Made by a program: the position numbers and the translations under genes | Virus record (IMG/VR): IMGVR_UViG_3300030109_001854 | Location: 4,300-33,742 of that record | From: a virus | DNA: 29,443 bases | Strand: one strand, 5' to 3' | The notes under the pieces: model-generated | The model's database searches: none | What the model was told of the DNA's origin: nothing | The model's input: only the letters and a program-made list of their open reading frames with translations | In this document: one piece after another, positions 1,633 to 28,872 of the stretch | How positions within the stretch are numbered: position 1 is the first letter of the stretch | Layout: each line of letters opens with the position of its first letter

Positions 1633-4050
1633 ATGGCTGATTCGGTTTATGTTAATTTTCCTTCTCAAGTTGTTAGTGACTTGGAAAAAATGAGTCCAGA
1701 GTATGGACTTAAAGTTGCTAAAGCTATAGAGCAAGAGTGGTTTAGAGGAACACAAGTAAGTAAATACATAGATACAAACTCTAAATTTCACAACTTAAGA
1801 TTATACGCTAGAGGCGAGCAACCTGTACAAAAATATAAAGATGAGTTATCTATTAATGGTGATTTATCTTATTTAAACTTAGACTGGAAGCCAGTTCCTA
1901 TAGTTTCTAAATTTGTTGATATAGTAGTAAACGGTATGTCTGAAAGAATGTTCAACGTTAAAGCTTACTCTCAAGATCAATATGGCGTAAGCAAAAGAAC
2001 AGAATACATGGAGTCTATATTAAGAGACATGAAATCAAAAGAGTTTAATGATTTTGCGGCAGATAGATTTAACATGAACTTGTATGAAAATGATAAAGAA
2101 ATATTACCAGATACAGAGGAAGAATTAGCGTTGCACATGCAACTAAATTATAAGCAAGCAGTTGAGTTAGCAGAAGAACAAGCTATAGATGTATTACTAC
2201 AAGGAAACAAATATGATTTAACAAGAAGAAGATTACTTTATGATTTAACTGTATTAGGTATAGCTTGCGTAAAAACACGTTTTGATTTTAGCGAAGGAGT
2301 AACTGTAGATTACGTTGATCCTGTTAATATTGTTTATTCTTATACTGAGTCTCCTTACTTTGATGATTTATATTATATAGGTGAAGTTAAAACTATACCT
2401 ATAAACGAACTGGTAAAACAATTTCCTAATTTAACTAATGAAGATTTAGAAGAAATACAAAAAACAGGTAATTATCATGTAGCTAATAAACACAATTATA
2501 AAAACGCTGGAGATAAAAACAAAATACAACTTTTATATTTTAATTATAAAACTTACACTAATGATGTTTATAAATTAAAAGAAGTTTCTAGTGGTGCTGA
2601 AAAAATAATACAAAAAGATGACAGCTTTAATCCACCTGAAAGCAAAGAAGGTGGTTATTCTAAATTACAAAGATCAGTAGAGTGTGTTTTTGAAGGTGTT
2701 TTAATTTTAGGTACAAATAAATTATTACAGTGGAAAAAAGCTGATAATATGATGCGTACTAAAAGTGATTACAATAAAGTAAAAATGAATTACGCTTTAG
2801 TTGCGCCTAGAATGTATAATGGTAGAATAGAGTCTTTGGTTAGCAGAATAACAGGCTTTGCTGACATGATTCAATTAACACATTTAAAGCTACAACAAGT
2901 TATGTCGCGTATGGTGCCAGACGGTGTTTATTTAGACGCTGATGGTTTAGCCGAAATAGATTTAGGTAATGGCACAAATTATAATCCACAAGAAGCTTTA
3001 AACATGTTCTTTCAAACTGGTTCTGTTTTAGGTAGGTCTTTAACTCAAGAAGGAGATCCTAATCCAGGTAAAGTACCTATACAACAAATACAAAATGGTA
3101 GTGGTGGTAATAAAATACAAAGTTTAATAACTACGTATAATTATTATTTACAAATGATAAGAGACGTAACTGGTTTAAATGAAGCTAGAGATGGTACATT
3201 GCCAGATAAAAATTCTTTAGTTGGATTACAGAAGTTAGCGGCGGCTAATTCAAACGTAGCAACTAGACACATATTAAATTCTTCTATGTTCTTAACAGCA
3301 GAAGTTGCAGAGGCACTTTCGCTTAGAATATCTGATATATTAGAATATTCTCCAACAGCTGATGCTTTTGTACAAGCTATAGGCGCTCATAATGTAGCTA
3401 CATTAAAAGAAATGACAGAGTTACATTTATATGACTTTGGTATATTTATAGAGTTAGAGCCAGACGAAGAAGAAAAACAAATGTTAGAAAACAATATACA
3501 AACAGCTTTATCACAACAGTTGATTGACTTAGACGACGCTATTGATATTAGAGAAGTTAGAAATGTTAAGTTAGCTAATCAATTATTAAAAATAAAAAGA
3601 AAGAAAAAGCAAGAAAGAGATCAAGCTATACAACAACAAAATATAAAAGCTCAAGCAGATGCAAACGCTCAAACACAACAAGCAGCAGCTCAAGCAGAGA
3701 TACAAAAAAATCAAGCAAAAGCAGAAGCAGAATTAAACATTGAAACTAAAAAATCTGAAATGAGAATGCAAGCATTGCAACAAGAAGTAATGCTTAAAAA
3801 AGATTTAATGAATCATGAGTTTGATCTTAATATGAAAATGAGAGAATCTGATGAAGCTTTAAAAAAACAATTAGAAACTGATAAAGAAGATAGAAAAGAC
3901 GAAAGAACAAAAATACAAGCTTCACAACAAAGTGAACTTATAGAGCAAAGAAAAACAGGTAAACCACCTAAAAGGTTCGAGTCTTCAGGTAATGATATAC
4001 TAGGAGGCGGATTAGGGTTAGATAGTTTTGACCCGCAAATTGGTAATTAA
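1633..4050 (+). CDS. Portal protein
   Basis: The dodecameric channel at one capsid vertex through which DNA enters and leaves, and the platform for the tail. It has 805 residues, long for a portal but in the range I recall for crAss-like phages. The mixed alpha/beta core includes LGIACVKTRF followed by a VDPVNIVYSY segment (about residues 213-240), a typical portal wing pattern. A conserved helical stretch around residues 510-550 contains RDVTGLNEARDGT. Residues about 655-770 are a Gln/Lys/Glu-rich coiled coil, probably the barrel or a scaffold-contacting tail, and the C-terminus is Gly-rich. The ATG follows the terminase stop as TAA-AAT-ATG. The neighbours (terminase before, scaffold and capsid after) support the call. 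Confidence 0.85.
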   Translation: MADSVYVNFPSQVVSDLEKMSPEYGLKVAKAIEQEWFRGTQVSKYIDTNSKFHNLRLYARGEQPVQKYKDELSINGDLSYLNLDWKPVPIVSKFVDIVVNGMSERMFNVKAYSQDQYGVSKRTEYMESILRDMKSKEFNDFAADRFNMNLYENDKEILPDTEEELALHMQLNYKQAVELAEEQAIDVLLQGNKYDLTRRRLLYDLTVLGIACVKTRFDFSEGVTVDYVDPVNIVYSYTESPYFDDLYYIGEVKTIPINELVKQFPNLTNEDLEEIQKTGNYHVANKHNYKNAGDKNKIQLLYFNYKTYTNDVYKLKEVSSGAEKIIQKDDSFNPPESKEGGYSKLQRSVECVFEGVLILGTNKLLQWKKADNMMRTKSDYNKVKMNYALVAPRMYNGRIESLVSRITGFADMIQLTHLKLQQVMSRMVPDGVYLDADGLAEIDLGNGTNYNPQEALNMFFQTGSVLGRSLTQEGDPNPGKVPIQQIQNGSGGNKIQSLITTYNYYLQMIRDVTGLNEARDGTLPDKNSLVGLQKLAAANSNVATRHILNSSMFLTAEVAEALSLRISDILEYSPTADAFVQAIGAHNVATLKEMTELHLYDFGIFIELEPDEEEKQMLENNIQTALSQQLIDLDDAIDIREVRNVKLANQLLKIKRKKKQERDQAIQQQNIKAQADANAQTQQAAAQAEIQKNQAKAEAELNIETKKSEMRMQALQQEVMLKKDLMNHEFDLNMKMRESDEALKKQLETDKEDRKDERTKIQASQQSELIEQRKTGKPPKRFESSGNDILGGGLGLDSFDPQIGN

Positions 4051-5298: not shown

Positions 5299-6738
5299 AT
5301 GGCAATTTCAAGTGCAAGTGGACCAGATGCGGCTCCACGTAAACAGACGTTGTCTTCTAACTATATTGACTTCGCAGGAGGTTCAACTGGATGGGAGCAA
5401 CAATACTTACCAGATCTTATGGAAAAAGAAGCAGAGATCTATGGTAAAAGAACAATTTCTGGCTTCTTAGCTCAAGTAGGTGCTGAAGAAGCTTCTGCTG
5501 CTGATAGAGTAGTTTGGTCTGAACAAGGTAGATTACACCTATGTTATACAGCTACTTATGACGACAACAATACTGACTATACTATCGTTAATGATATTGA
5601 CGGTAATGCGGTTGGTGCTAATCACGGTATTAGAGTTGGTGATATAGTTATCATGACTTTAGATGGTGCTACAGCTAAAGGTTATGTTTCTGGTATAGAT
5701 CCTGATGGTGATAATGATGACCAAATCAGAGTTCTTTCTTATACTGCTGCAAACATGGCTACAGCTTTAGGTTCTACAGCTACAACTGCTCAATTAATTA
5801 GAGTATTAGTTGTTGGTTCTGAATTTGAAAAAGGAACTGCTGCTAGATCATCTGCTAATACACCTCAATTCAAATCTTATTCAAACAAGCATCTTATAAT
5901 GAAAGATTACTACGAAGTATCTGGATCTGATGCGTCTGCAATAGGTTGGGTTGAAGTTTCTGGTGAAGCTGGACAAAATGGATACTTATGGTATTTAAAA
6001 GCTGAAGGTGATACTAGAGCAAGATTTACTGACTATTTAGAAATGACTATGCTTGAAGCAGAGCTTTCTATAGCTGGTGCAGGTGCTATTGGTGGTACTG
6101 ACGGAGGTGCTAATAACGATGGTACTCAAGGTTTATTTGCTGCTATCGTTGCTAGAGGACATCAGTCTACTGGTATAACAGGTACTAACCCTGCTACTGA
6201 TTTAGCAGAGTTTGATGCTGCTTTAGCGGTATTTGATCAAAATGGTGCAATAGAAGAAAACATGATGTTTGTTGATAGAACTACTTCGTTAGCTATTGAT
6301 GACATGTTGGCTCATATGAATTCTTATGGAGCTGGTGGTACTTCTTTTGGAGTATTTGATAACTCTGAAGATATGGCACTTAACTTAGGGTTTTCTGGAT
6401 TTAGACGTGGTTCTTACGACTTCTATAAATCTGACTTTAAATACTTAAACGACAAAGGTACTAGAGGAGGTTTAAATGACACAGTTAATGCAATTAGAGG
6501 TGTTATTGTTCCTGCTGGTGTATCTTCAGTTTATGATGAAATGTTAGGTAAAAACATGAAGAGACCTTTCTTACATGTTAGATTTAGAGCGTCTGAAACT
6601 GAGTCTAGAAAAATGAAGACTTGGGTTACAGGTTCTGTAGGTGCTATGACATCTGGAAAAGATACGATGGAAGTACACTATCTATCAGAAAGATGTTTAG
6701 TTACTCAAGGTGCTAACAACTTTATGTTATTGAACTAA
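5299..6738 (+). CDS. Major capsid protein (HK97-fold expected)
   Basis: The subunit that forms the icosahedral shell. It has 479 residues. The N-arm has WEQQYLPDLMEKEAEIYG (about residues 32-50), followed by an E-loop-like stretch. A small beta-rich insert around GIRVGDIVIMTLDG (about residues 110-125) is followed by an acidic DPDGDNDD loop. The C-terminal half has the helix/strand pattern of P and A domains, including GFSGFRRGSYDFYKSDF and GVIVPAGVSS. No protease or delta domain is seen. The gene ends in tandem stops TAA TAA and is followed at once by a terminator hairpin, as expected for the most abundant virion protein. In two 60-base lines counted by hand, GC is about 40%, against 18-35% in lines from flanking genes, which suggests codon selection for high expression. 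Confidence 0.88.
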   Translation: MAISSASGPDAAPRKQTLSSNYIDFAGGSTGWEQQYLPDLMEKEAEIYGKRTISGFLAQVGAEEASAADRVVWSEQGRLHLCYTATYDDNNTDYTIVNDIDGNAVGANHGIRVGDIVIMTLDGATAKGYVSGIDPDGDNDDQIRVLSYTAANMATALGSTATTAQLIRVLVVGSEFEKGTAARSSANTPQFKSYSNKHLIMKDYYEVSGSDASAIGWVEVSGEAGQNGYLWYLKAEGDTRARFTDYLEMTMLEAELSIAGAGAIGGTDGGANNDGTQGLFAAIVARGHQSTGITGTNPATDLAEFDAALAVFDQNGAIEENMMFVDRTTSLAIDDMLAHMNSYGAGGTSFGVFDNSEDMALNLGFSGFRRGSYDFYKSDFKYLNDKGTRGGLNDTVNAIRGVIVPAGVSSVYDEMLGKNMKRPFLHVRFRASETESRKMKTWVTGSVGAMTSGKDTMEVHYLSERCLVTQGANNFMLLN

Positions 6739-9361: not shown

Positions 9362-12300
9362 ATGCCAGAGTTGAAACGTAATTTTTCAGCTGCCAAGATG
9401 AACAAAGACCTCGATGAGAGGTTAATTCCACCAGGGCAGTATAGAGATGCATTAAATGTACAAATAGCAACGTCTGATGGTTCTAACGTAGGATCATTAC
9501 AGACTTTGTTGGGTAATACAGTTAAAAATACTATGGCGTCTACTTATGACAGCCCTAACTCTACATCAGCTAACGCTTTTTATGGTGTACCAACTACAGC
9601 TGCTTGTGTTGGTTCTGTAGCTTTACCAGATAAAGATAAAATTTACTATATGGTTGCGGCTGGCTTAGATGTTAGTTCTAACACTACAGTTTCAAATGGT
9701 AAACCTGATGAGTTAGATATTCAAAAAGATTATATACTAGAATACGATTCAGTAGCAAAAACTTTAAAATATGTTTTTGTAGATATATATCAAGTAAAAG
9801 AACAAGTTTCTGTTGTTTCTAATCAATTCCAAGATTTTATTTATATACCAAATTTAGGTTCTGCTACTATTAACAAAACAGGAGTAAGAATAGGTATGAC
9901 TGTGCAAGGTACTTTAGGTAGCACTTCTTATACAGAAGCTGATGGAATAACAGTTTCAGATATACAATATGATGCTACTAACACGGCATTTAAATTGATA
10001 TTACAAAAAGATGGTGAAAGTTTTAAACCTACAACTGGAGCTGCTGTTAACGACACAGTAACATTTAAAGCGCCTAGAGTTTTAAATTTTTATTACAATA
10101 ACTTAATAACGGGTATAAATGTGTTAGATGACATGTTATTTTGGACAGATAACGCGACTGAGCCTAAAAAAATAAATATAAAAAGATCTAAAGCTGGAAC
10201 AGGTGGTGTTGAATATTTAGTTGGTGGTGGAATTTTAGGTAAATCTTTAGGTACACCTACTGATGCTGTTTTTGATGGAGATACTCCTTATTTTCATACT
10301 AGATTAGTTACAGATCCAGACAATGATGGTAACTTACAAGTAGCTAGAACTCCAGATGAAACACAAGCCGTTTATGTAAAAGAAAGTCATGTTACTGTTA
10401 TTAGGAAAGCTCCAACACAACCTTTAGAACTAAAAATGGCTAGAGACGTAGCTGACAGATTAGATTCTAGTGGTAATGTTAATCCTTCTTTTACAACTAT
10501 ATCATCTTTAAATTTCGCTCAAACAGTTAATAGTGTTTCTGTTTTATATGAAAGCGGAGATGAAGTTGATATAACATTTGATGTTGCTGTTGACTATAGA
10601 GTAGGAGATATATTGTATTTTGTTAGTGATGATGATATGACACCTTATCAAGCTAGTAATTTTCCAGTTTCTGGAAGTACCAGTGTATCACAAGTTAGAG
10701 CCGTTGTTGTTAAATCTAAAGTAACAACTGGTGACGCTTTATTTACAGATGGTTTTACAATAAGAATAACTTCAATTGATCAAGACCTACCAACAACAAA
10801 CGAAACATTTCATATAAGAAGAGAATCACAAGATCCTTTATTTGAGTTTAAGTTTGTTAGATTTTCTTATAGATATAAATATGAAGATGGTGAATATTCT
10901 ACTTTTGCACCATTTTCAGAAATAGCTTTTCTACCAGGTACTTATGGTTATCAACCTAAAAAAGGTTACAACTTAGGTATGACAAACACTTTAAAAAGCT
11001 TAACGTTAAAACAATATTATCCTAAACTAGGTATACTACCAGAAGATGTAGTTGAAATTGATTTATTATACAAAGAAACAAACAACCCTACTGTTTACGT
11101 TGTTAAAACAATAAAACCATCAGATGGGCATCCAATGTGGCCAGACACAAAAAACTACACAGGTAGAGGTGAATACAATGTAACAACAGATATGGTTCAC
11201 AACATTGTACCTTCTAATCAACTGCTAAGGCCTTACGACAATGTGCCTAGATTAGCTTTATCACAAGAGGTAACAGCTAACAGGTTAGTTTATGGTAATT
11301 ATCTACAAAATTATAATATTCAAAAAGATCCAATTATAAAACTTTGGTTACAATCAAATCCAAAAGCTAATGTTAACCCAAACAACGGTGTAGCTTCTGT
11401 AAAATCTATAAGAACTTACCAAGTAGGCGTCGTGTTTAGTGACGATTATGGTAGAGAGACACCAGTGTTAACTAGTAAAAACGCTTCTATAACTTTACCA
11501 AAAACATTATCAAATACTAGAAACAGAATAGTAGCGCAGTTACAACAAGGATCATTTATACCTAGCTGGGCTAAATATTTTTCTTGGTATATAAAAGAGC
11601 CAACACCAGAATATTACAATTTAGCTATGGATAGATTTTATCATGCTGCTGACGGAAATATTTGGTTATCTTTTCCTTCTTCTGAAAGAAATAAAATAGA
11701 TGATGGAACATTTTTAATATTGAAAAAAGCGCACGGTAGTAGTGTTTCTGTTATAGAAAAAGCTAGATATAAAATATTAGCTATATCTAATGAAGCTCCA
11801 GATTATATAAAAACAGAAAAGAAAAGTTTAGGTTTACTTTTAAACACTAATAACGACAAGTTTGGTAATGCACAAGAGGGTTTTCCTTTACCAGACCATA
11901 CTTTTATAACAGTAGAAGGTAGTGTGTTTAAAACTATATTTGGTGAAGATATTATTATAAACAAACCAGATAAAATGGTTATGGTTATACGTAGAGGCGC
12001 TGAAAAATCTGACGAATATGAAGTTAGTCATATAAGTGGAGACGTATTAGATAAAGTGAAACTTAAAATAAAAGGAAAGTTTGGTGATGATATGGACTTG
12101 ACTTCTAGTGGTGGAACTTTTAGTACTATTAATTCAAATTTATCATTAGAACTATATGAATTTGAAACTGAAAATAGACCAGAGTTTGATGGTAGATTTT
12201 TTGTAAAAGTATATAATGATGATGTACTTAAAAAGCACATTTTATCTTATAGCGATGATGCTAACGATTATGTTGTAGATGATAGCGAAAAAATATATTA

Positions 12301-15124
12301 TTTAAATAACGCTTATAATACTCAACCTTTAGGCTGGGGATCTTTTATAGAAAAATCAGCTGCTCTTGGAGGTACAGCTACACCTGATGCTAAATCACAT
12401 CCAACTCAAAAATCGCATCATGCAGCTTACACATGGGGGAAAGATGATAATGAAAAATGGGGTTTGACAGCCAGTGATATGGAATCTGCTCCTATAGTAA
12501 ATCTTAATCATGGTGGTGGTGCACCTGATTTTTGGGAACTACTAAGAAAACAAAATAACTTTTTTATAGATGCTTCAAGTGCTTTTTCATTTGATGCAAA
12601 AACCGCAACAGGTCAATACGAGGTGGCTGGTACCGCTTCTGATCAAAATTTTTATCCTTCTAGTAACCCACCTTCTATGGCTTACGATGATGCCACTGGA
12701 GCAAAAGGCAACGATCCTTCTAATACAAAAAGAACATCTAATACAACGGCTAATGTTACTAGCACAGATACTTTTAGATGTTTAGGTCAACCTTCTAGAG
12801 GTATATGGGGACCTGATAATGTTTACATGGATATAGCTTGGGTTGGCATGGGTGATGGTTGGAGTGGTGGCGCTTTAGATCCTGATGGTTATCCGCAAAA
12901 ACTAGAAGACGCACCCACTAGTAAAGTTAGGCATCAAGAAGCTAACACTTTTATACAAAAACTTGTAGTACCTGGTTGTAAATTTAGATTTCAAAGAGAT
13001 CCTGATGAAACAGTGTATACAGTTGAAAGTTTTGGTTACAACACAGAACATCCAGATGGTATAGCGCCTTACAATGATATTCCTTCTAAAAATGGAGCTT
13101 GGGGTATACGTAATTATTTTACTGGTTTCACTGGTTTAGGTAATCAAAATATTAAAGAGCAATATGAAAAAGCTAATGTAAGGCAACGTTGGACAATAAA
13201 AGTTTCGCCTGGTATAGGAACAGGTCCTTCAGGTTATGATCCAACAAGAGGTACTAACGATGGTATAGCTTCTGGTGACGTTAGGACAGCTTTACAGCAT
13301 GATTTTAATGGTTACGATACAATAAAAATATTAGTACCTTACACTGATGTTGAAGCTGGTTCAGATACTTTTTCTGAAAACCCTGCTGTTTGGGAAACAG
13401 AACCTAAAGAATCTGTAGAGTTAGATATATATTATGAAGCTAGTGGTAAAATACCTTTAGTTTTAAATTCTTTAACTAATGAAGAGTACTTACCATTTGG
13501 AACAACCTTTAAAGCTAATGATGGAACTAAAACAGATACATATGAAATAACTGAATGGACTAATGATAACACTATAAAATTTAAACCTAATTTAGCTAGC
13601 GGTGTTTCATTTACAAAAGAAGATGAAATATATTTTACAAAAAGAAATAATTATTCTTTAGATGGTAAATTCGCTGGTGACTCTTTTTCCTCAGCTGGTG
13701 GTGTTGACACTTTAAAACTATTTGGCGATTCATCTACAAACGCGCTTACTTCAACAGCTAATCCACCTAGAAATTTAGAAATGTATGGTAGATACCATGT
13801 GTTAGACTGGAGTAACTGTTTTTGTTTTGGCAATGGTGTAGAATCTGATAGAGTTAGAGATGATTTTAACGCTTCACAAGTAGACAACGGCGTTAAAGCT
13901 TCAACTACTTTAGATGAACCTATACAAGAAGAGAGAAGAAAACATGGTTTAATTTGGTCTGGAATTTATAATTCACAATCAGGCGTAAACAGTACAAATC
14001 AATTTATACAAGCAGAAAAAATAACAAAAGATTTAAATCCAGTATATGGTAGTATACAAAAACTACATGCTAGAAACACAAACTTAATAACGCTTTGTGA
14101 AGATAAAGTTTTAAATATATTGTCTAATAAAGATGCTCTATTTAACGCTGATGGTAACTCTAACGTAACAGCAACTTCTAAGGTTTTAGGATCAGCTACA
14201 CCTTATGCTGGTAACTACGGAATATCAACTAATCCAGAATCTTTCGCAGCAACTCCTTATCAAGTTTTCTTTACTGATCAAATGAGAGGTATGGTGCTAA
14301 TGTTATCTGGTAATGCTATAACACCTATATCAGATTTAGGTATGAAAGATTATTTTTCTGATAACTTAAAAACTTATATAGATAAAGTTATAGGTAGTTA
14401 CGATGCTAAAAAACACGAGTATAATTTAACTATAGCTCAAAGATACTCAAAAACACAGGTTATACCTACTTTTATAACTTTAAGTTATAGTGAAAAATCT
14501 AAAGGTTGGACTTCGTTTAAATCTTTTCATCCAGAAAATGGTGTTAGTTTAAATAATGATTTTTACAGTTTTAAGGCAGGGCAATTATATATACATCATG
14601 ATAACGCAACACGTAATAATTTTTATGGAGTACAATACGATTCAGATGTAACACTAGTGTTTAATGACAAACCTACTATGGTTAAAAGCTTTAATACTGT
14701 TAACTACGAAGGAACACAAGCTAAGATAACAGTACCAGCTACAACGTCAATATCAGATGCAGCGGGTAATACAGTAACATCGACAGCTGTTAAACATAAT
14801 GAATACTTTAACTTAACAGCTAAAACAGGTTGGTATGTTGACAGTATAACAACAAACAAACAAACAGGTGGTGTAGTTGAATTTAAAGAAAAAGAAGGCA
14901 AATGGTTTGGTAGTGTATGTGGAGACACTACTACAGTTACAAATTTAGATGAAAAAGAATTTTCTGTACAAGGACTAGGTACAGCAACGTTTACACACTC
15001 TAGCCCAGTTAGTGCTACAGATCCAGCACAAGGTAGTGTAACAATAACAATAGCAAACAATACATCCACTTCGTATGTTGGTGACGATGGTAGTGGTAGT
15101 GCTTGGGATGCTACAGCAGATTAA
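9362..15124 (+). CDS. Giant tail stabilization / muzzle protein, P22 gp10-like
   Basis: Probably the distal plug and stabiliser of the short tail. It has 1920 residues; P22 gp10 has about 472 and I recall crAss-like versions as much longer than that. The N-terminus carries the family signature AAKMNKDLDERLIPPGQYRD and ALNVQIATSDGSNVGSL (about residues 10-45). RLVYGNYLQNY lies near residue 640. A beta-propeller-like region near residues 1615-1690 includes YGISTNPESFAATPYQVFF, then MRGMVLMLSGNAITPISDLG and MKDYF. IGSYDAKKHEYNLT follows. Residues about 1000-1500 are an aromatic, Gly/Asp-rich region that is probably an insertion specific to this branch. The last about 130 residues are Thr/Ser-rich beta structure with KTGWYVDSITT and KEKEGKWFGSVCG. 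It sits between the tail tubular protein and the appendage genes. Confidence 0.78.
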   Translation: MPELKRNFSAAKMNKDLDERLIPPGQYRDALNVQIATSDGSNVGSLQTLLGNTVKNTMASTYDSPNSTSANAFYGVPTTAACVGSVALPDKDKIYYMVAAGLDVSSNTTVSNGKPDELDIQKDYILEYDSVAKTLKYVFVDIYQVKEQVSVVSNQFQDFIYIPNLGSATINKTGVRIGMTVQGTLGSTSYTEADGITVSDIQYDATNTAFKLILQKDGESFKPTTGAAVNDTVTFKAPRVLNFYYNNLITGINVLDDMLFWTDNATEPKKINIKRSKAGTGGVEYLVGGGILGKSLGTPTDAVFDGDTPYFHTRLVTDPDNDGNLQVARTPDETQAVYVKESHVTVIRKAPTQPLELKMARDVADRLDSSGNVNPSFTTISSLNFAQTVNSVSVLYESGDEVDITFDVAVDYRVGDILYFVSDDDMTPYQASNFPVSGSTSVSQVRAVVVKSKVTTGDALFTDGFTIRITSIDQDLPTTNETFHIRRESQDPLFEFKFVRFSYRYKYEDGEYSTFAPFSEIAFLPGTYGYQPKKGYNLGMTNTLKSLTLKQYYPKLGILPEDVVEIDLLYKETNNPTVYVVKTIKPSDGHPMWPDTKNYTGRGEYNVTTDMVHNIVPSNQLLRPYDNVPRLALSQEVTANRLVYGNYLQNYNIQKDPIIKLWLQSNPKANVNPNNGVASVKSIRTYQVGVVFSDDYGRETPVLTSKNASITLPKTLSNTRNRIVAQLQQGSFIPSWAKYFSWYIKEPTPEYYNLAMDRFYHAADGNIWLSFPSSERNKIDDGTFLILKKAHGSSVSVIEKARYKILAISNEAPDYIKTEKKSLGLLLNTNNDKFGNAQEGFPLPDHTFITVEGSVFKTIFGEDIIINKPDKMVMVIRRGAEKSDEYEVSHISGDVLDKVKLKIKGKFGDDMDLTSSGGTFSTINSNLSLELYEFETENRPEFDGRFFVKVYNDDVLKKHILSYSDDANDYVVDDSEKIYYLNNAYNTQPLGWGSFIEKSAALGGTATPDAKSHPTQKSHHAAYTWGKDDNEKWGLTASDMESAPIVNLNHGGGAPDFWELLRKQNNFFIDASSAFSFDAKTATGQYEVAGTASDQNFYPSSNPPSMAYDDATGAKGNDPSNTKRTSNTTANVTSTDTFRCLGQPSRGIWGPDNVYMDIAWVGMGDGWSGGALDPDGYPQKLEDAPTSKVRHQEANTFIQKLVVPGCKFRFQRDPDETVYTVESFGYNTEHPDGIAPYNDIPSKNGAWGIRNYFTGFTGLGNQNIKEQYEKANVRQRWTIKVSPGIGTGPSGYDPTRGTNDGIASGDVRTALQHDFNGYDTIKILVPYTDVEAGSDTFSENPAVWETEPKESVELDIYYEASGKIPLVLNSLTNEEYLPFGTTFKANDGTKTDTYEITEWTNDNTIKFKPNLASGVSFTKEDEIYFTKRNNYSLDGKFAGDSFSSAGGVDTLKLFGDSSTNALTSTANPPRNLEMYGRYHVLDWSNCFCFGNGVESDRVRDDFNASQVDNGVKASTTLDEPIQEERRKHGLIWSGIYNSQSGVNSTNQFIQAEKITKDLNPVYGSIQKLHARNTNLITLCEDKVLNILSNKDALFNADGNSNVTATSKVLGSATPYAGNYGISTNPESFAATPYQVFFTDQMRGMVLMLSGNAITPISDLGMKDYFSDNLKTYIDKVIGSYDAKKHEYNLTIAQRYSKTQVIPTFITLSYSEKSKGWTSFKSFHPENGVSLNNDFYSFKAGQLYIHHDNATRNNFYGVQYDSDVTLVFNDKPTMVKSFNTVNYEGTQAKITVPATTSISDAAGNTVTSTAVKHNEYFNLTAKTGWYVDSITTNKQTGGVVEFKEKEGKWFGSVCGDTTTVTNLDEKEFSVQGLGTATFTHSSPVSATDPAQGSVTITIANNTSTSYVGDDGSGSAWDATAD

Positions 15125-20109: not shown

Positions 20110-23100
20110 ATGGTTGTAGGATTAAAAAAAATAATTCAACGTATGATAGATGATCCTTCTCTTAAAGACAAAGAGAAGATTATTAAAAAAGTAATAGAAG
20201 GGGTAAATAATAATACCGTTTCTACTAGGAGTATGAATATAATACAGCCAACTATTATAGAAAAACCTACAGATGACGCTAGAATTAACCTTATGTTAGG
20301 AGAAGAAATAGATCCAGACAAAAAAATAGAAATAGAAAAGTCTTTAGAAAAAAGAGAAAAAGAAATACAACTTTTAAAAAATCAACAAGAAATAAAACTT
20401 AAAACTGGATTTAAACCAGGAAAATATCCAACTTTAAATACCGGCGAAGTTGAAACCGTAACCTCACCTATTGGTGGACAAACTGTTAATATACCTAAAA
20501 CAAAACAAGCAAATGAAACCGACATGATAGGTATGATATCTGATGCTAGTTTTTTATATAAACAAGAATTCGACAACTACATGTCTGATGATTTAGAAAC
20601 CATAATAAGTTATTCTAGAGATCAATTAAAGTATGAAAAACAGTTACAGCCTTTACATGACAGGGTTTGGCTTACTTTAAACGAAAAATATCCTGGATTA
20701 CAAAAAAGAGATTTTAATAATCTAATAAACAAGGGCGGTAAAGGTATATTTTCAAATTCTTTAGACGCAGCTGTTACAGAATATCAAAAACAAGATAATG
20801 TTAAAAACCTAGAAGGAGCAAAAAATCTAGATCCTTTGTATTACAACACGGTTGTTAGTGATCAAATAAAAAAATTACCTGAAAAACAAAAAAAGAAATT
20901 GTTTTTAAACACTCAAATTAGAGAAAAACAAAGACAGTTAAATAAAGAAGGTATAGACGAAAACGAAGCTAAAAGATTAAAAACTGAAATAGCTAAGCAT
21001 AAAAACGATTTAACAAAACTAGCAACAACATACGGGTTGTCAGCAGATGGCAGCACCTCAGGTAGTGTGGATATAGTAGATCCTAAGTTAGCTAGTGCTT
21101 ACATGGATAATGAAACAACTAAGTATCGTCAACAAAAAATAAATAAAGCTAAAAAAGATTACGAAGCAAATAAAAAATCAGATATAGAAGCATATAGAGA
21201 GCTTAATCCGGGGTTAACTGATTTTGAAGCTCACGATTTAGTTATGAAATCTAAAGCTTACAACTTACAACAATTGTATGTTGCTGGAGAAAAACAAACA
21301 GTTAATCTTAAGTTTAATACATCAGAAGCACAAAATTCAAGTTTGTTTTCTAAGTTAAAAGAAAAAGGTTATGATTTAGAAAAAGGAAAAGAAGAAAATA
21401 GCATAGATGTTCCTTTAAAAACTTTATTTGATTTAGGTTATGATGGTAGAGATTTTAAAGGTATTAGTGATATAGGTATATTTGGAAAACAAAAAGATTA
21501 TATAAGTAAAGACGATGTTGCTAAGTTATTAAATTATGAAGACGCTATCTATAGAACAAAAGGAGAAATTGATATATTATTTAACACTACTTACGTTAAC
21601 AATGATCCTGCTACTTTTGACTATGGTGGGTTTGGCGGTTCTCTTGCTAGAGAAACTGTTAAAGGTATATTAACACACTTTACAGATGTAAGCGCTTATG
21701 AAGCTGATCAAATGATTTCAAAAGGCGGTACAGAAGCTGTTTTATTAGATGGATTTCAGAACATGGTTGTTCAACATAACAAAATATTAAAAGATGAAAT
21801 AGCGGCAGGAGAAGTTGATGAACTTGGTTTTACTGAAGATCAATCTAAAGCTATAGAAAAATTGTTTTCAGAAGAAGTTGGCGAGGGTGTTGGTCATTTT
21901 ATGCCTATGTTGGTAGAGTTAGGAGTTTACTCTGCGGCAACAGGTTATACAATGACAGCTACTAAATTCGCTGGTATGTTATCTAAAATGAAAAAAGCTG
22001 GTGGATGGCAGAAAGCAAAATATCATGCTATATTAGCTATGATAGAAGAAGGAAAAATGTTTGCAGCTGATTTTGATCCTGGCGTTGGTGCCTCTTTTTA
22101 CGGTCTTAACCAAGCTACTTCTGGTATAGGTTTTAAAAAGAAATTTAAAGCATTTGATCCTATTTTTCAAAAAGTTATAAAAGGTGGCCCGGTTGGTGCC
22201 ACAGCATCTCAATTTTCTACCGTAGTATCAGAAGGTGTAAAAGGTTTAAAGGGTGATAAAGATTTTATGGCTACCATGGAAGACTACTTTGGCGATCTTA
22301 AATTTAAAGATTTAATTATAGAGTCTATGGTGTTTGGTATTGTAGGAGGTATGCACGTTAAACCCAAAGACTTTATGTCTACTGGCTCTAAATACAAAGC
22401 TATAGCTGAAATAGATAGTAAGATGAATAAGCTACTACAAACCGTTAAGATTGTAAAAGGAGAAACAGGTCCTGAAAAGGTACCTGGTAAGCCAAAAGGA
22501 TATGAATCTTTAACTGGAAAAGAAAAACAAAGATATGATGCTTTAAATGAAGCTAAAAACACTTTAGAGCAAATGGTTAAAATAGAAACCAATAACATAG
22601 ACTTAGACCCCAATAATAAAAACTTTGAATCTAATGTACAAAAAAAATACTTAGACCCTTATAATGCTATTGTTAAATCTGTTCATAAAAATTTTGAAGG
22701 ATTTAAAGTTGAATTTACTGAAAACGCAAAAGATCCTAGACTTACTGAAGGAGCTTTAGCTAAATATATAGAAACAACACCTGGTCAAGCTGGAACTATA
22801 CTTTTTTTGAAAAGTAAATTTACGCCAGAAAGGCTTATACACGAGATGAGTCATGTTGGTATGGAGTCTTATTTTAAAAGAAACCCAGAGGCCGAAGCGG
22901 TGTTTACTAAAAAAATGTCAACTTTGTTTAAAGACTTTAATTTTGAAGCGTACGATGGCACACCGTTAGGAGAGTTTATAGAAACACATTATAAAAAAGA
23001 AATTGAAAAAGATCCTACTGTAGCTAACAGAGAATTTTTAGCTTACATGTATGAATTACTTATGGATCCTAAAATTTACTACCAACAAACTGCTTCTACG

Positions 23101-26100
23101 TTTTTTAAAGAAGCAAAACAAGAGATGCTTAGTATGATGGAGGAATCTTTAGGTTTTAAACCAAAAATAAGAACAGCTAAAGATTTTGTTGATATGATAG
23201 GTAGGTTCACTAAAGATGCTAGAATGGATTTAGGTTTTGGCGCTAAAGCAGCTAGATTAGCTGACTTAGATGAATTTACTTTTTTGGGTATAGAGTTTGT
23301 AGAAAGCAAAAATAAAAAAATAGCTGAAGATTTAGGTGGTAAAGATTTAAAACAACAAAAAGCAGAGTTAGTAGAGGCTAATAAAGAGCTATATAGAACT
23401 GGAGGAGATCAAGCAAAAATAGACGCCAATGTAAAGAAAATACAAAAATTAAACAAAAACATACAAACATCTGAAACAAACTTAGAAGCTATAACAGAAT
23501 ACAAAAACCGTGAAGAGCAAGGTAAAGACGCTTCAAGACAGTTTACAACACTTAAAGAAAACAACGCTGGTATACTTAATGATTATATAAATAAAACCTA
23601 CAAAGATGTAACTGGTTCTGATTTAACAAAAGCAGAGTTTAAAAATTATGTTGAAAACAACGAGTTGTTAAAAATAATAAGAAGTTATAACCCCAACACA
23701 GGTACTCCTTTTGGCGCTTATTTAAAACAAACGTTACCGTTTAGAACAGGTAATATTTTAGGAAAAGGAGGTTTAGATGTTCGTTTAGACAATAAAATTC
23801 AAACTACTTCTATTGATAATTTAACTAAAGAAATAGTAGCTGAACAAACCGTTGAAGTAGAACAAGCTCCAGGTGGTAAAAAAGGTTCTTATTTATTATA
23901 TGATTTACCTGTTGATAAAAAATCAACTGACAACATTGTTAAAAAAGCTAAAAATTATATTAAAAAAGTAGATGTTGAAAAACTAGATTACAAAAGTACG
24001 CCAAAGTTATTTGATATGAGTATTTTTGGTAAAACAAATAAAGAAAAAATGCAATTTGTGTCAGATAATTTTAAAACTATTTATGACGCTATGCCACAAG
24101 GGTTTTCTAGTGTAACAGGTAAAGCTACTGGTATACCAAATAGCATATTAGCTAAGTTTTACACAAAAACCTCAGAACGAGTTACACAACGTGAAACAGG
24201 TGATCCAGCTGGTTTGTTTATTCAAGAAAAAAATAAATTAAACAAAGATCAATTTTTAAAACTACTTGAAACAAAAATAGACGCTAATGGTAACGTAGAT
24301 ATATCCGCTATGGGTAGAAATACTAAAACGTCATTACTACCACGTTTAATGGACGTTACAAACCAAGCTATAACAAATCAAGTTGTTAGACAGGTTATAA
24401 AAGAAAATCCAAGTTTAGTTTTTAGAACAAATGTTCAAACCGTGCTTAATAGAATAGCATCTGGTAAGTCTAGTAATCTTGCTGGTAAAGATTTAGGTAA
24501 GCAAATAACTTTAGATATATCTAAAAGACCTGGATTTAAAAATAATCCAGATGACATATACGGGTTGTTAAGTGAAAAACAGTATAATAAGTTTCCTACA
24601 TCAGAAATAAATAAATTTAAAAATTCTCTTGCTCGTTTACAAGAACAAATAAAAAGAGAAACCTTAGGCGTGACAAAAGATTTATCTGTACAAGAAAAAT
24701 TAATGGTAGCGGCGGGAGAAGTTAAATCTGACATGTCACTAACAGAGTCTACTGGATTTAAAGGAGGAGTTTTAAAATTAAAAGAAAAATATAAGAAAAA
24801 TAAAGCTATACAAAAACTTAATGAAAACGAAAAGTTAGAAGGCGAATGGATGAAAGATCCCGCGGAAGTTGCTTTACAAAATAAAGTTGAATTAATTTTA
24901 TCAAATAAACATAATAAAGATGTTTTAATAACAAACAAAACGGCTTTTATGTCTAATTACGGTCAAGGCAAAACAAAGTATTGGGATCCAATAGAGAAAA
25001 AATTTAAAAGAAAAAATTTACCAGAAAAAAACTCAACACCAGAGGGTTATTTTGAGTATCACTTTAGTGGAAAATTTGAAGGTTCTAATAAAAAAATGCC
25101 TTATGATCCTAAAGAAGTTAATATAATTAACGATATGGGTGCGGTAAAAACTAAATATGCTAAGTTTGTTGAAAAAACTAAAAACTTACCTAATAAATTA
25201 GAACTAAGACACGCTGAAGGTAGAAGATTATTTACGGGTAAAAGCTCTTCATTTGAAAAAGTACTTGAAAATAACGCAAAACTAAGAGAGTTTGAATTAA
25301 GTAACGTTAGAGATATAATAGTAAATTCTAAAAAATATGGATTAACTCCTGAGCAAGCTCTTAGAGCTGGTTTTAGATATTTAAGAAAGCATACAAATAT
25401 ATCTAATGGTTTAATAAAAGGTACAGCTACAGTTACCTCTATATCTAATGAAGCTGGTATTCCGGTGGGTAAAGACCCTAGTGCTAAAAATTACCTTGGA
25501 ACACAGTTTTGGGGGGAGCATCAACTTCAATTACAAAATCATAATAATACTTTTTTTGATATAGTATTTAGTACTAAAAACAGTAAAAAAGAATTTAATA
25601 AACAATTAAAGTTGTTAAGTAGGGATTTTGAACAATCTTTAACTAAAAAACAAGATCAATTAATTTATGATTCATCTATTTATGGAGGCCCAGCTGGATT
25701 ATTACCGTTGTTTAAAAATAAAAAAATAGGTGAAGTTTCTTCTATATTAAACATAATGTATAGACCAGGTATGGCTTTTGAGCAAATAGATTTAAAAAGT
25801 AAAACACCTAGAACTATAGGAGAAAGCATAATAAGAAACTATACTAAAAAACAAGTTGATGCTTTATTAAGCGAAGTTGGTAAAAAAGGAGAATTTAATT
25901 CACTTTCTCTTGAGCTTAAAATAGCTAACAACAATAGAAAGAATATTGAAAACATAGACAAACGCACTCCATTTAGTGCTGCTACTAAAAACTTGTCTAC
26001 AAATAGAAAACAAGAAATTTTAGAAAACGTAGATAAGGCTATAGAAAATGGTAGAAAAAAGAAAAAAGAAAAACGAGGTATTAGTGTTTGGGATTTTGAT

Positions 26101-28872
26101 GACACTATAGCTAAAAGCAAATCAAAAGTTTTATTTACAACACCCGATGGTAAGAAAGGCAGTTTAACGCCTAAAGAGTATGCAGATAAGTATGTTCAAT
26201 TAGCTGAACAAGGATATAAGTTTGATTTTTCAGAGTTTAATAAAGTTGTTGAAGGTGAAAAAGGACCTTTGTTTGGTGAGTTAGTAAAAAGAATAAAAAA
26301 GTTTGGAGTTAAAGATAATTTTATATTAACAGCAAGACCAGCGGAAGCAGCTCCAGCTATAAAAGAATTTTTAAAATCACAAGGTCTAGATATACCTTTA
26401 GAAAATATAACAGGTTTAGCTAATTCAACAGCTGACGCGAAAGCATTATGGATGACTGAAAAATTTGCAGAAGGTTACAATGATTTTTATTTTGCTGATG
26501 ATGCTATAAAAAATGTTAAAGCTGTTAAAAATGTATTAGATCAACTAGATGTTAAATCTAAAGTACAACAAGCTTTGTCTGCTAAAGATTTAAACAAAGA
26601 CTTTAATAAGATAATAGAAGACACAAGAGGTATTAGAGCTGAAGAAGTTTTTTCTGGAGCTAAAGCTAAAATGCTAGGTAAAAACAAATGGTCAAGATCT
26701 ATTATAGTTCCAGGTGCTCAAGATTTTATGGGTATGATGCAAAACTTTGCTGGTAAAGGTAAAAAAGGTGAAGCACAATTAAAGTTTTTTGAAGACAACA
26801 TGGTTATGCCTTTTGCTAAAGGTATAAATGAAATGAACCATGTAAAACAAAGAGCTACTGAAGATTTTAAAAAGTTATCTAAAGAACTTCCAACTGTTAA
26901 AAAGAGATTAAACAAAAAAATACCTAACTCTGTTTTTACTTATGATCAAGCTGTAAGAGTAAAAATATGGAACGACGCTGGATTTAAAATTCCAGATATA
27001 TCAAAAAAAGAAGTAAAAGAATTAGTAAATAGCGTAATAAGTAATCCGGAGCTACTTGCTTTTACTAATGGTTTACAAAAAATGACAAGAAACAAGTACG
27101 TTGAACCAGGACAACATTGGATAGGAGAAACTATATTGTCAGATGTGCAAAAACTTACACAATTTGTAGGTAGAAAAAAATATTTATCTGAGTGGATAGA
27201 GAATAAAGATATAATATTTTCTAAAGAAAATTTAAATAAAATAGAAGTTTCAGAAGGTAGTAAATTTAGAGAGTCTTTAGAAGATATGCTTTACAGAATG
27301 GAAACGGGTTCTAATAGACCTACAGGTAGCAACAGACTAGTTAACATGCACATGAATTTCATTAATGGTTCTGTTGGTGCTACTATGTTTTTAAATATGA
27401 GATCTGCAGCGTTACAAACAATATCTGCTACAAACTATGTCAACCTTAGAGAAAACAATCCTATCGCCGCTGCTAAAGCTTTTGCAAACACGAGACAATT
27501 TATAAAAGACTATACTTATATATGGAATTCACCTATGTTAAAACAAAGAAGGGCTGGTTTAAAATATAACGTACAAGAAGCTGAACTAGCCGCTGCTGTT
27601 GCTGGATCAAAAAATAAAGCAAAAGCTATGACAGCTAAGTTAATTAAGTTAGGTTTTACACCAACTCAAGTTGCTGATAGTTTTGCTATTGCAGCAGGTG
27701 GTGCTACTTATTACAGGAATAGAATAAATATGTATGAAAAACTTGGTTATTCTTTTGGTGAATCAAGAAAGAAGGCTTGGTTAGATTTTCAAGAAACAAC
27801 AGAAAAAGCGCAGCAGTCTTCTAGAGCTGATTTAATATCACAACAACAAGCTTCTCCACTAGGTAGAACTATATTAGCTTGGGCTAATACACCTATGCAG
27901 TATATGAGAATACAAGAAAAAGCGGCTAGAGATATTATAAATGGTAGAGGAGATTTTAAAGCAAACATGTCTAAAATAGCTTATTACGGTTTTGCGCAAT
28001 CTGTTTTATTTGCTGGTTTACAAAACGCTATGTTTTCTTTTGGTTTAGACGAAGAAGAAGATTTAGATGATGAAGACTTTAACAACAGAATGGAAAGAGT
28101 AATAAATACGGTTGCTGATGGCCAACTAAGAGGCTTAGGTACGCCTGGAGCTTTATTGTCTGCTGTTAAAAACACTGCATTAGAATTTGATAAACAAGAA
28201 GAAAAAGGATACAAAGGTGATCACACTAAAACAATATTGCAATTAACTGGTTATTCTCCAGTATTAGGTTCTAAACTTAGAAAATTATATAGTGCTACAC
28301 AAACTTACAAGTACAATAAAGATGTTATACCAGCAATGGGATTAAGTTTAGATAATCCAGCTAATTTAGCTATAGGTAATGTTATAGAAGCTACAACAAA
28401 TGTACCAGTAGCTAGAATGGTTATGAAATTAGATAATATAAGAGAAGCTGCTGATGATAGAAATCAAAACTGGCAAAGAATAGCTTTACTAATGGGTTGG
28501 TCTAAGTGGGATGTTGGCGCTGAAAGCGAAGAAGTACAGGAAATAAAAGAAAAAATAAAAAAAGAAAAGAAAGAATTTAAAATTGAACAAAAGCTAATAG
28601 AAAAAGCTGAAAAAGCAAAAGAGCAAGAAGCTATAAATTTAGAAAAACAAACTAAAGAAAAAGAAGAAGGCAAAAAGGTTACCTGTATAGCTATGAGTTC
28701 TAGCGGTCAAAGATGCGGTTTACCTGTCGTCGGTGAAGGTAAGTATTGTACTATACATCAAAAAGTAGAACAAGGAACTAAAGAAGTACAGTGTAAAAAA
28801 ATAAAATCCGATGGAAAACAATGTAAAATGAAAACTAAAAATAAATCAGGCTTATGTTATTATCACGATTAA
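20110..28872 (+). CDS. Giant multidomain (polyvalent) virion protein: metallopeptidase, HAD, helical ejection region, zinc knuckles
   Basis: The protein has 2920 residues, about 30% of the window. In order: charged coiled-coil N-terminus (1-550). Hydrophobic or amphipathic helices around 595-760. A metallopeptidase-like motif HEMSH (H911, E912, H915) with NREFLAY (E975) as a possible third ligand. A stretch near 1193 (YNPNTGTPFGAYL) resembling sigma-70 region 2. A HAD phosphatase-like domain about 1991-2150 with DFDDT (D1995, D1997), LTARP (T2074) and FADDA (D2130, D2131). A helical region to about 2810 with membrane-active-looking segments near 2414-2446 and 2624-2646 and the conserved ASPLGRTILAWANTPMQYMR motif. 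A Lys/Glu coiled coil. Two zinc-knuckle motifs at 2859-2919. It is most likely packed in the virion and injected, where its domains would act on host targets; this is inference from known polyvalent phage proteins. The ATG at 20110 follows the previous stop by seven bases. Confidence 0.75.
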   Translation: MVVGLKKIIQRMIDDPSLKDKEKIIKKVIEGVNNNTVSTRSMNIIQPTIIEKPTDDARINLMLGEEIDPDKKIEIEKSLEKREKEIQLLKNQQEIKLKTGFKPGKYPTLNTGEVETVTSPIGGQTVNIPKTKQANETDMIGMISDASFLYKQEFDNYMSDDLETIISYSRDQLKYEKQLQPLHDRVWLTLNEKYPGLQKRDFNNLINKGGKGIFSNSLDAAVTEYQKQDNVKNLEGAKNLDPLYYNTVVSDQIKKLPEKQKKKLFLNTQIREKQRQLNKEGIDENEAKRLKTEIAKHKNDLTKLATTYGLSADGSTSGSVDIVDPKLASAYMDNETTKYRQQKINKAKKDYEANKKSDIEAYRELNPGLTDFEAHDLVMKSKAYNLQQLYVAGEKQTVNLKFNTSEAQNSSLFSKLKEKGYDLEKGKEENSIDVPLKTLFDLGYDGRDFKGISDIGIFGKQKDYISKDDVAKLLNYEDAIYRTKGEIDILFNTTYVNNDPATFDYGGFGGSLARETVKGILTHFTDVSAYEADQMISKGGTEAVLLDGFQNMVVQHNKILKDEIAAGEVDELGFTEDQSKAIEKLFSEEVGEGVGHFMPMLVELGVYSAATGYTMTATKFAGMLSKMKKAGGWQKAKYHAILAMIEEGKMFAADFDPGVGASFYGLNQATSGIGFKKKFKAFDPIFQKVIKGGPVGATASQFSTVVSEGVKGLKGDKDFMATMEDYFGDLKFKDLIIESMVFGIVGGMHVKPKDFMSTGSKYKAIAEIDSKMNKLLQTVKIVKGETGPEKVPGKPKGYESLTGKEKQRYDALNEAKNTLEQMVKIETNNIDLDPNNKNFESNVQKKYLDPYNAIVKSVHKNFEGFKVEFTENAKDPRLTEGALAKYIETTPGQAGTILFLKSKFTPERLIHEMSHVGMESYFKRNPEAEAVFTKKMSTLFKDFNFEAYDGTPLGEFIETHYKKEIEKDPTVANREFLAYMYELLMDPKIYYQQTASTFFKEAKQEMLSMMEESLGFKPKIRTAKDFVDMIGRFTKDARMDLGFGAKAARLADLDEFTFLGIEFVESKNKKIAEDLGGKDLKQQKAELVEANKELYRTGGDQAKIDANVKKIQKLNKNIQTSETNLEAITEYKNREEQGKDASRQFTTLKENNAGILNDYINKTYKDVTGSDLTKAEFKNYVENNELLKIIRSYNPNTGTPFGAYLKQTLPFRTGNILGKGGLDVRLDNKIQTTSIDNLTKEIVAEQTVEVEQAPGGKKGSYLLYDLPVDKKSTDNIVKKAKNYIKKVDVEKLDYKSTPKLFDMSIFGKTNKEKMQFVSDNFKTIYDAMPQGFSSVTGKATGIPNSILAKFYTKTSERVTQRETGDPAGLFIQEKNKLNKDQFLKLLETKIDANGNVDISAMGRNTKTSLLPRLMDVTNQAITNQVVRQVIKENPSLVFRTNVQTVLNRIASGKSSNLAGKDLGKQITLDISKRPGFKNNPDDIYGLLSEKQYNKFPTSEINKFKNSLARLQEQIKRETLGVTKDLSVQEKLMVAAGEVKSDMSLTESTGFKGGVLKLKEKYKKNKAIQKLNENEKLEGEWMKDPAEVALQNKVELILSNKHNKDVLITNKTAFMSNYGQGKTKYWDPIEKKFKRKNLPEKNSTPEGYFEYHFSGKFEGSNKKMPYDPKEVNIINDMGAVKTKYAKFVEKTKNLPNKLELRHAEGRRLFTGKSSSFEKVLENNAKLREFELSNVRDIIVNSKKYGLTPEQALRAGFRYLRKHTNISNGLIKGTATVTSISNEAGIPVGKDPSAKNYLGTQFWGEHQLQLQNHNNTFFDIVFSTKNSKKEFNKQLKLLSRDFEQSLTKKQDQLIYDSSIYGGPAGLLPLFKNKKIGEVSSILNIMYRPGMAFEQIDLKSKTPRTIGESIIRNYTKKQVDALLSEVGKKGEFNSLSLELKIANNNRKNIENIDKRTPFSAATKNLSTNRKQEILENVDKAIENGRKKKKEKRGISVWDFDDTIAKSKSKVLFTTPDGKKGSLTPKEYADKYVQLAEQGYKFDFSEFNKVVEGEKGPLFGELVKRIKKFGVKDNFILTARPAEAAPAIKEFLKSQGLDIPLENITGLANSTADAKALWMTEKFAEGYNDFYFADDAIKNVKAVKNVLDQLDVKSKVQQALSAKDLNKDFNKIIEDTRGIRAEEVFSGAKAKMLGKNKWSRSIIVPGAQDFMGMMQNFAGKGKKGEAQLKFFEDNMVMPFAKGINEMNHVKQRATEDFKKLSKELPTVKKRLNKKIPNSVFTYDQAVRVKIWNDAGFKIPDISKKEVKELVNSVISNPELLAFTNGLQKMTRNKYVEPGQHWIGETILSDVQKLTQFVGRKKYLSEWIENKDIIFSKENLNKIEVSEGSKFRESLEDMLYRMETGSNRPTGSNRLVNMHMNFINGSVGATMFLNMRSAALQTISATNYVNLRENNPIAAAKAFANTRQFIKDYTYIWNSPMLKQRRAGLKYNVQEAELAAAVAGSKNKAKAMTAKLIKLGFTPTQVADSFAIAAGGATYYRNRINMYEKLGYSFGESRKKAWLDFQETTEKAQQSSRADLISQQQASPLGRTILAWANTPMQYMRIQEKAARDIINGRGDFKANMSKIAYYGFAQSVLFAGLQNAMFSFGLDEEEDLDDEDFNNRMERVINTVADGQLRGLGTPGALLSAVKNTALEFDKQEEKGYKGDHTKTILQLTGYSPVLGSKLRKLYSATQTYKYNKDVIPAMGLSLDNPANLAIGNVIEATTNVPVARMVMKLDNIREAADDRNQNWQRIALLMGWSKWDVGAESEEVQEIKEKIKKEKKEFKIEQKLIEKAEKAKEQEAINLEKQTKEKEEGKKVTCIAMSSSGQRCGLPVVGEGKYCTIHQKVEQGTKEVQCKKIKSDGKQCKMKTKNKSGLCYYHD

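Follow-up and report, generated by a model that had tools for sequence, protein, structure and literature searches.

A giant polyvalent-type protein with predicted zincin peptidase, sigma-2-like and HAD phosphatase modules in a clade of marine podoviruses that probably infect Bacteroidota

Background

Polyvalent proteins, as described by Iyer et al. 2017 (PMC5512222), are very large, combine a zincin peptidase with unrelated domains and are encoded in a late-gene neighbourhood; the zincin is described there as their hub domain, common but not universal, and a zincin of the kind discussed below was found in the virion RNA polymerase gp50 of phage N4 (Schitoviridae). N4 gp50 is ejected and serves early transcription (PMC12633501). 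Large, virion-carried proteins related to RNA polymerases and thought to be ejected are also known from the crassvirus phi-crAss001 (gp47, gp49 and gp50; PMC10172136).

Here we analyse a 2,920-aa ORF (20110..28872, ATG to stop) at the end of the late gene cluster of an uncultured virus. The window, i.e. the whole stretch of DNA studied (29,443 nt), corresponds to positions 4300-33742 of the 33.7-kb IMG/VR record IMGVR_UViG_3300030109_001854; all features are on its plus strand and coordinates are those of the window. The giant resembles the polyvalent proteins in its size, in combining a zincin with a sigma-2-like module, a HAD domain and zinc knuckles, and in having terminase, portal and structural genes in line with it; what it adds are the sigma-2-like and HAD modules, as neither a sigma-factor domain nor a HAD or phosphatase is named in the main text of PMC5512222. 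N4 gp50 and the window giant are both giant podovirus proteins with a zincin-type peptidase region, but the latter possesses a sigma-2-like module, while an RNA polymerase domain was not found in it. An earlier, sequence-only reading of this DNA had set the protein apart from the N4 enzyme, which is only partly right: the polymerase domain is indeed absent, but the zincin is common to both. No Pfam match to a lytic transglycosylase domain of the T7 gp16 type was obtained for the giant (P0001). Like the crassvirus cargo proteins, the giant is a large protein of a probable Bacteroidota podovirus, but its modules are sigma-2-like and phosphatase-like and not related to RNA polymerases.

Results and discussion

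The late gene cluster and the virus clade

The large genes of the window all point in one direction and encode the terminase large subunit (1..1629, with the 5' end outside the window; phrog_6681, E-value 1e-124), the portal protein (1633..4050; phrog_6547, E-value 7e-155), a virion structural protein that is possibly the major capsid protein (5299..6738; phrog_13704), a 1,920-aa virion structural protein (9362..15124; phrog_14478, E-value 1e-123) and, as the last one, the giant. Homologues of both structural proteins were found by mass spectrometry (MS) in Cellulophaga phage phi40:1 (Pervagoviridae, Callevirus). A 439-aa ORF just 5' of the giant (18783-20102) is poorly conserved and exhibits a weak EF-hand match (E-value 0.007).

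The window portal is 36-52% identical to the portals of the Flavobacterium elemo phages, Maribacter phage Panino, phi40:1 and the circular genome MW202828 (41-52% for the best annotated relatives), and the gene order 3' of the portal is the same in all of them. It was also present, at 56-77% identity, in 30/30 records checked among the relatives of the giant, which indicates that these form one clade. Homologues of a 242-aa gene of the window adjoin the giant in 69 loci, and those of a 120-aa gene in about 60. A 63-kb contig assigned to a Sphingobacteriales MAG carries one clade member (L105, JAAXIF010000025.1, G037:C28), whose terminase and portal are 83% and 68% identical to those of the window; the contig resembles a near-complete phage. 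This binning is consistent with a Bacteroidota host, bearing in mind that bins may be contaminated. Altogether, the virus probably belongs to an uncultured marine clade of podoviruses infecting Bacteroidota.

Architecture of the giant across the family

The sequence-only reading had described a 2920-residue ORF with an HEXXH motif, a full set of HAD motifs, a helical region and two C-terminal zinc knuckles, all of which are present; it overlooked the sigma-2-like module and a conserved domain at residues ~1259-1460. For the HAD/C-terminal part, more than 404 relatives are present in IMG/VR. We analysed 83 sequences of this part, 75 of them (including the window) within proteins longer than 2,000 aa. 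Among these 75 giants, HEXXH or HEXXXH occurs in 74 and HAD motif I in all, separated by 790-1,395 residues (median 1,008); the sigma-2-like domain was detected in 50, and the peptidase motif, HAD and sigma-2-like domain all together in 49. The order of peptidase and HAD, conserved in 74/75 giants, is thus a fixed architecture. The earlier suggestion that this domain order is undescribed holds for the literature that could be searched, but in nature the order is common.

Scans of the whole protein against Pfam, PHROGs, NCBIfam and PADLOC gave weak matches only, with the exception of PHROG_415 on the HAD domain; in translated searches of annotated phages, neither the giant nor its C-terminal consensus nor its middle module had a homologue; the domain profiles found no real match among PDB sequences; and Foldseek alone reported no PDB match at E<=0.001 for either of the two models. 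The sigma and polynucleotide kinase-phosphatase (PNKP) signals discussed below arise from a second look with VIA together with profile tests.

The zincin peptidase domain

The predicted zincin (gluzincin-type) metallopeptidase domain comprises residues ~830-1000 (22597..23109). Its HEMSH motif spans residues 911-915 (nt 22840-22854) and the third ligand is Glu975 (nt 23032-23034); an alignment of 67 relatives shows no exception to H911, E912, H915 and E975. HEXXH appears by chance in 1% of shuffles of the giant protein; it is the conservation among relatives that identifies the motifs of the giant as real. In the predicted structure a helix and three strands are followed by the HEXXH helix and the Glu helix, a layout that agrees with the one described for zincins in PMC5512222, and the model shows weak fold matches (Z ~5) to aminopeptidase N, anthrax lethal factor and BepA. 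The peptidase profile also detects a homologous domain in elemoE gp18 (hhalign probability 92%, E-value 5e-7). The assignment of the HEXXH motif to a zincin peptidase domain is therefore supported at the level of sequence and model.

The closest relatives L001 (12698-12715), L002 and L003 exhibit HEVLGH in place of HEMSH, which fits the pattern HEXXXH; a set of zincins with HEXXXH is described in PMC5512222. The sole giant longer than 2,000 aa that lacks HEXXH (L056) has HHDAFH nearby instead.

The sigma-2-like module

Between the peptidase and the HAD domain lies a module similar to domain 2 of sigma factors (residues 1119-1221; 23464..23772). The sequence pattern YNPxxGxPFxAYL of the giant suggests sigma region 2.3, and the region 2.3-like motif YNPNTGTPFGAYL is located at residue 1193 (nt 23686). 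In VIA-align comparisons of the predicted, helical model of the module (residues 690-792 of the model), the best five rows were all sigma-2 structures (SigA, Z 9.8; sigma70, Z 9.5 and 8.3; sigma32, Z 9.3; sigmaS, Z 8.1; rmsd 2.7-3.1 across 91-98 residues), followed by the first unrelated row at Z 7.0; for helical folds values below ~13 may reflect only a shared arrangement, hence the sigma-2 case rests on the structural and profile lines jointly. The hhalign comparison with E. coli and phage sigma factors gave an E-value of 2.3e-6 (probability 89%), with an alignment collinear over regions 2.1-2.3; the E-value was 1.3e-5 against E. coli sigmas alone, 3.9e-5 against E. coli and MAG host sigmas, and weak (0.0026) against the MAG host sigmas alone, of which only five sequences were usable. 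The best of 100 column-shuffled controls reached an E-value of 0.26, and other segments of the giant scored at most 17.3 against the sigma profile, compared with 41.8 for the module.

Sigma70 uses the tryptophans and aromatic residues of region 2.3 in promoter melting. Where sigma region 2.3 has its tyrosine, 23/23 aligned modules have an aromatic residue (18 Tyr, 4 Phe and 1 Trp), while the tryptophans that follow it in sigma70 are replaced by other residues. Searches with Pfam Sigma70_r2 left the module unmatched, both at E<=1 across 33 members and at E<=10 in G000; sigma region 4 was not recognised in the giants, with a weak Sigma70_r4_2 match (E-value 0.12) in two members. Thus, the module shares with domain 2 of Sigma-70 proteins (E. 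coli RpoD, M. tuberculosis SigA) the predicted fold and the profile of regions 2.1-2.3, but differs in lacking a recognised region 4 and the region 2.3 tryptophans and in lying below Pfam detection; with Sigma70_r2 unmatched and the tryptophans not kept, we use the name sigma-2-like and refrain from classifying it as a sigma factor. With the sigma HMM, the module went undetected in 25/75 family members and in the giant of the MAG phage. No virion-delivered sigma module or factor turned up in a search of open-access papers.

Stand-alone sigma factors of ~255 aa are encoded far from the giant in at least five clade records (L096-L100, L127) and also on the MAG contig. A T7-type RNA polymerase (PF00940) was found neither in eight clade records of 58-71 kb nor in the MAG, in a search that detected the T7 control; G000 also gave no PF00940 match, in a search in which no control responded.

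The HAD phosphatase domain

The HAD domain (residues ~1987-2160; 26068..26589) is indicated by its motifs (DFDDT, 1995-1999; LTAR, 2073-2076; K2111; DD, 2130-2131), by PHROG_415 and by its predicted fold. The catalytic residues are kept wherever the respective segment is present (DxDxT in 74/74, T in 82/82, K in 82/82 and DD in 83/83 sequences). PHROG_415, annotated as "polynucleotide kinase", matches the domain in 14/33 members (best E-value 5e-7). The best fold match of the model is the 3'-phosphatase of T4 Pnkp (Z 12.4, rmsd 2.5, 127 aligned residues), followed by bacterial Pnkp1 (Z 11.8), with a modest lead over other HAD proteins (Z from 10.7 downward). When the HAD profile was compared by hhalign with only T4 PseT, the alignment was limited to motif I, hence the PNKP link rests on the structure and PHROG_415. 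By eye, [ST]xR, K and DD motifs like those of the domain can be recognised in PseT. On the basis of the model, the HAD domain would be nearest in fold, by that modest lead, to the 3'-phosphatase of polynucleotide kinase. It shares with PseT this fold and the DxDxT, [ST]xR, K and DD motifs, but the giant lacks a recognised kinase domain, and PseT itself is not part of a giant protein. The giant of relative L067 contains a second DFDET near its N-terminus (residue 256), possibly an extra HAD domain.

Other regions of the giant

The N-terminal ~830 residues (20110..22596) are conserved only in the closest relatives (L001-L003), with residues 430-760 conserved also in L004; residues 430-830 were modelled as mostly helical with low confidence. 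The conserved α/β domain at residues ~1259-1460 (23884..24489; TGxxNxxLxxFYxK ... NQxVR), supported by model and profile, is predicted with pLDDT mostly above 90, and its profile matches 36 giants. It is followed by a variable middle region (24490..26067) that aligns in only about two relatives according to the coverage profile. About 15-18 relatives share a GxSxxMFSK motif immediately C-terminal to the middle domain (e.g. at residue 1799 of the L025 giant), a possible cut site; its enrichment is modest and its location a single one, and we do not claim it as a self-cleavage site.

The HAD domain is followed by a ~660-residue scaffold (26620..28599) with an all-helical predicted structure (pLDDT mostly 70-90), and the two together make up the most conserved large part of the giant. 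Searches of BFVD with the model of both revealed a small number of uncharacterised family members (34-48% identity) as well as numerous remotely similar phage proteins (E-values 1.5e-8 to 2.5e-4, TM 0.2-0.45, 10-14% identity), including ones annotated as "PolyVal ADP-ribosyltransferase", "ART-PolyVal-like" and "Large polyvalent protein associated domain". Resemblance of the modelled fold, rather than of sequence, thus supports placing the giant in the polyvalent class. The protein ends with two putative zinc knuckles of the C-x9-C-x10-C-x2-H type, CIAMSSSGQRCGLPVVGEGKYCTIH (from residue 2859; 28684..28758) and CKKIKSDGKQCKMKTKNKSGLCYYH (from residue 2895; 28792..28866), which has a weak DUF5763 match (E-value 0.97). 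Such a knuckle arises in 0/1,000 shuffles of the giant protein, and one or two are found at the C-terminus of 26/84 proteins.

The gene slot and the location of the protein

The slot at the end of the cluster holds a giant in the syntenic relatives as well (1,691 aa in phi40:1, 3,694 aa in elemoE, 3,859 aa in MW202828 and 1,829 aa in Panino). The phi40:1 protein, gp101 (AGO47966), was found by virion MS and the elemoE protein, gp18 (YP_010109083), is annotated as structural. They have in common with the window giant the syntenic slot, and gp18 has a homologous zincin, but neither has detectable homology to the HAD, sigma-2-like or C-terminal module; the virion presence of the window giant therefore rests on gene position, and by analogy with its slot we infer that it is packaged in the virion. 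The slot giant of Panino (L007, 35423-40912) is annotated as a tRNA methyltransferase, and the slot of phi46:3 (L012, 22439-28958) is split into two ORFs.

Possible function and alternative explanations

We propose, with a probability of about 0.7, that the giant is a polyvalent protein of this podovirus clade, whose hosts are probably Bacteroidota, and that it is packaged in the virion, ejected with the genome and active in the host. The helical scaffold would serve packaging and ejection; the peptidase may process the giant into its functional pieces, or cleave host proteins, at about the time of entry; the sigma-2-like module could dock on host RNA polymerase and either favour early phage transcription or restrain that of the host; the HAD domain might strip 3'-phosphates from nicked DNA or from RNA cleaved by host nucleases, while the zinc knuckles would bind nucleic acids. 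Shot into the host with the DNA, such a protein could allow immediate takeover of the cell. This proposal is based on the synteny of the late cluster, the MS detection of phi40:1 gp101, the peptidase of elemoE gp18, the invariant catalytic residues, the sigma-2 matches, the C-terminal PolyVal fold, the stand-alone sigmas of the clade and the T7-type RNA polymerase not being found; against it count the lack of detectable homology between the HAD/C-terminal module and the slot giants of cultured phages, the Sigma70_r2, tryptophan and region 4 results for the sigma-2-like module, and the failure to find a strong transmembrane segment in the giant. The sequence-only reading had likewise proposed a polyvalent protein, which agrees with the disparate domains, the zincin, the HAD fold, the late-gene neighbourhood and the C-terminal fold; delivery with the DNA we infer.

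The mostly helical character of the giant, its maintained late-cluster position and the concentration of conservation in the HAD/C-terminal helical region would also be expected of a purely structural or ejection protein, forming a tunnel or an internal core, in which the enzymatic folds are relics or act only in assembly (e.g. as a maturation protease). We regard this as unlikely, as both enzymatic domains keep their catalytic residues without exception among relatives whose identity is often about 50% or less, which would not be expected of relics. Still less probable is a protein produced late that does not enter the virion and works inside the cell, for instance in nucleic-acid processing or repair at packaging: the slot giants of cultured phages do carry mostly different modules, but the syntenic gp101 is a virion protein by MS, gp18 with its homologous peptidase is annotated as structural, and the predicted C-terminal fold of the giant is shared with polyvalent proteins.

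A different doubt concerns the sigma-2-like module alone and is compatible with the rest of the polyvalent reading. The resemblance could be purely structural, or the module could be a helical domain exapted for binding DNA, the portal or another virion protein instead of RNA polymerase; the unmatched Pfam family, the changed tryptophan positions, the failure to recognise a region 4 and the tendency of helical folds to yield middling Z-scores all leave room for this, and we give it somewhat less than even odds in view of the five sigma-2 top rows, the gap before the unrelated ones, and a collinear profile alignment (E-value 2e-6) far beyond 100 shuffles. Only tentatively, and with rather more doubt, do we suggest that the virion giant delivers a sigma-factor domain that captures host RNA polymerase at entry, as a third route beside that of N4 and the crassviruses, which inject a whole RNA polymerase, and that of T4 Alt, which modifies the host RNA polymerase. 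Phages without an RNA polymerase of their own must win that of the host quickly, and a virion-borne sigma-like part, if true, would be a new way of doing so.

A giant of the polyvalent type is in itself nothing unusual; what is new is that it contains sigma-2-like and PNKP-like modules, arranged in a constant order throughout the clade. The order peptidase/sigma-2-like/phosphatase/scaffold provides a defined architecture for dissecting injected giants in a large, mostly uncultured marine clade. Among the syntenic relatives, L006, L007 and L008 encode GroEL and/or GroES near the packaging genes.
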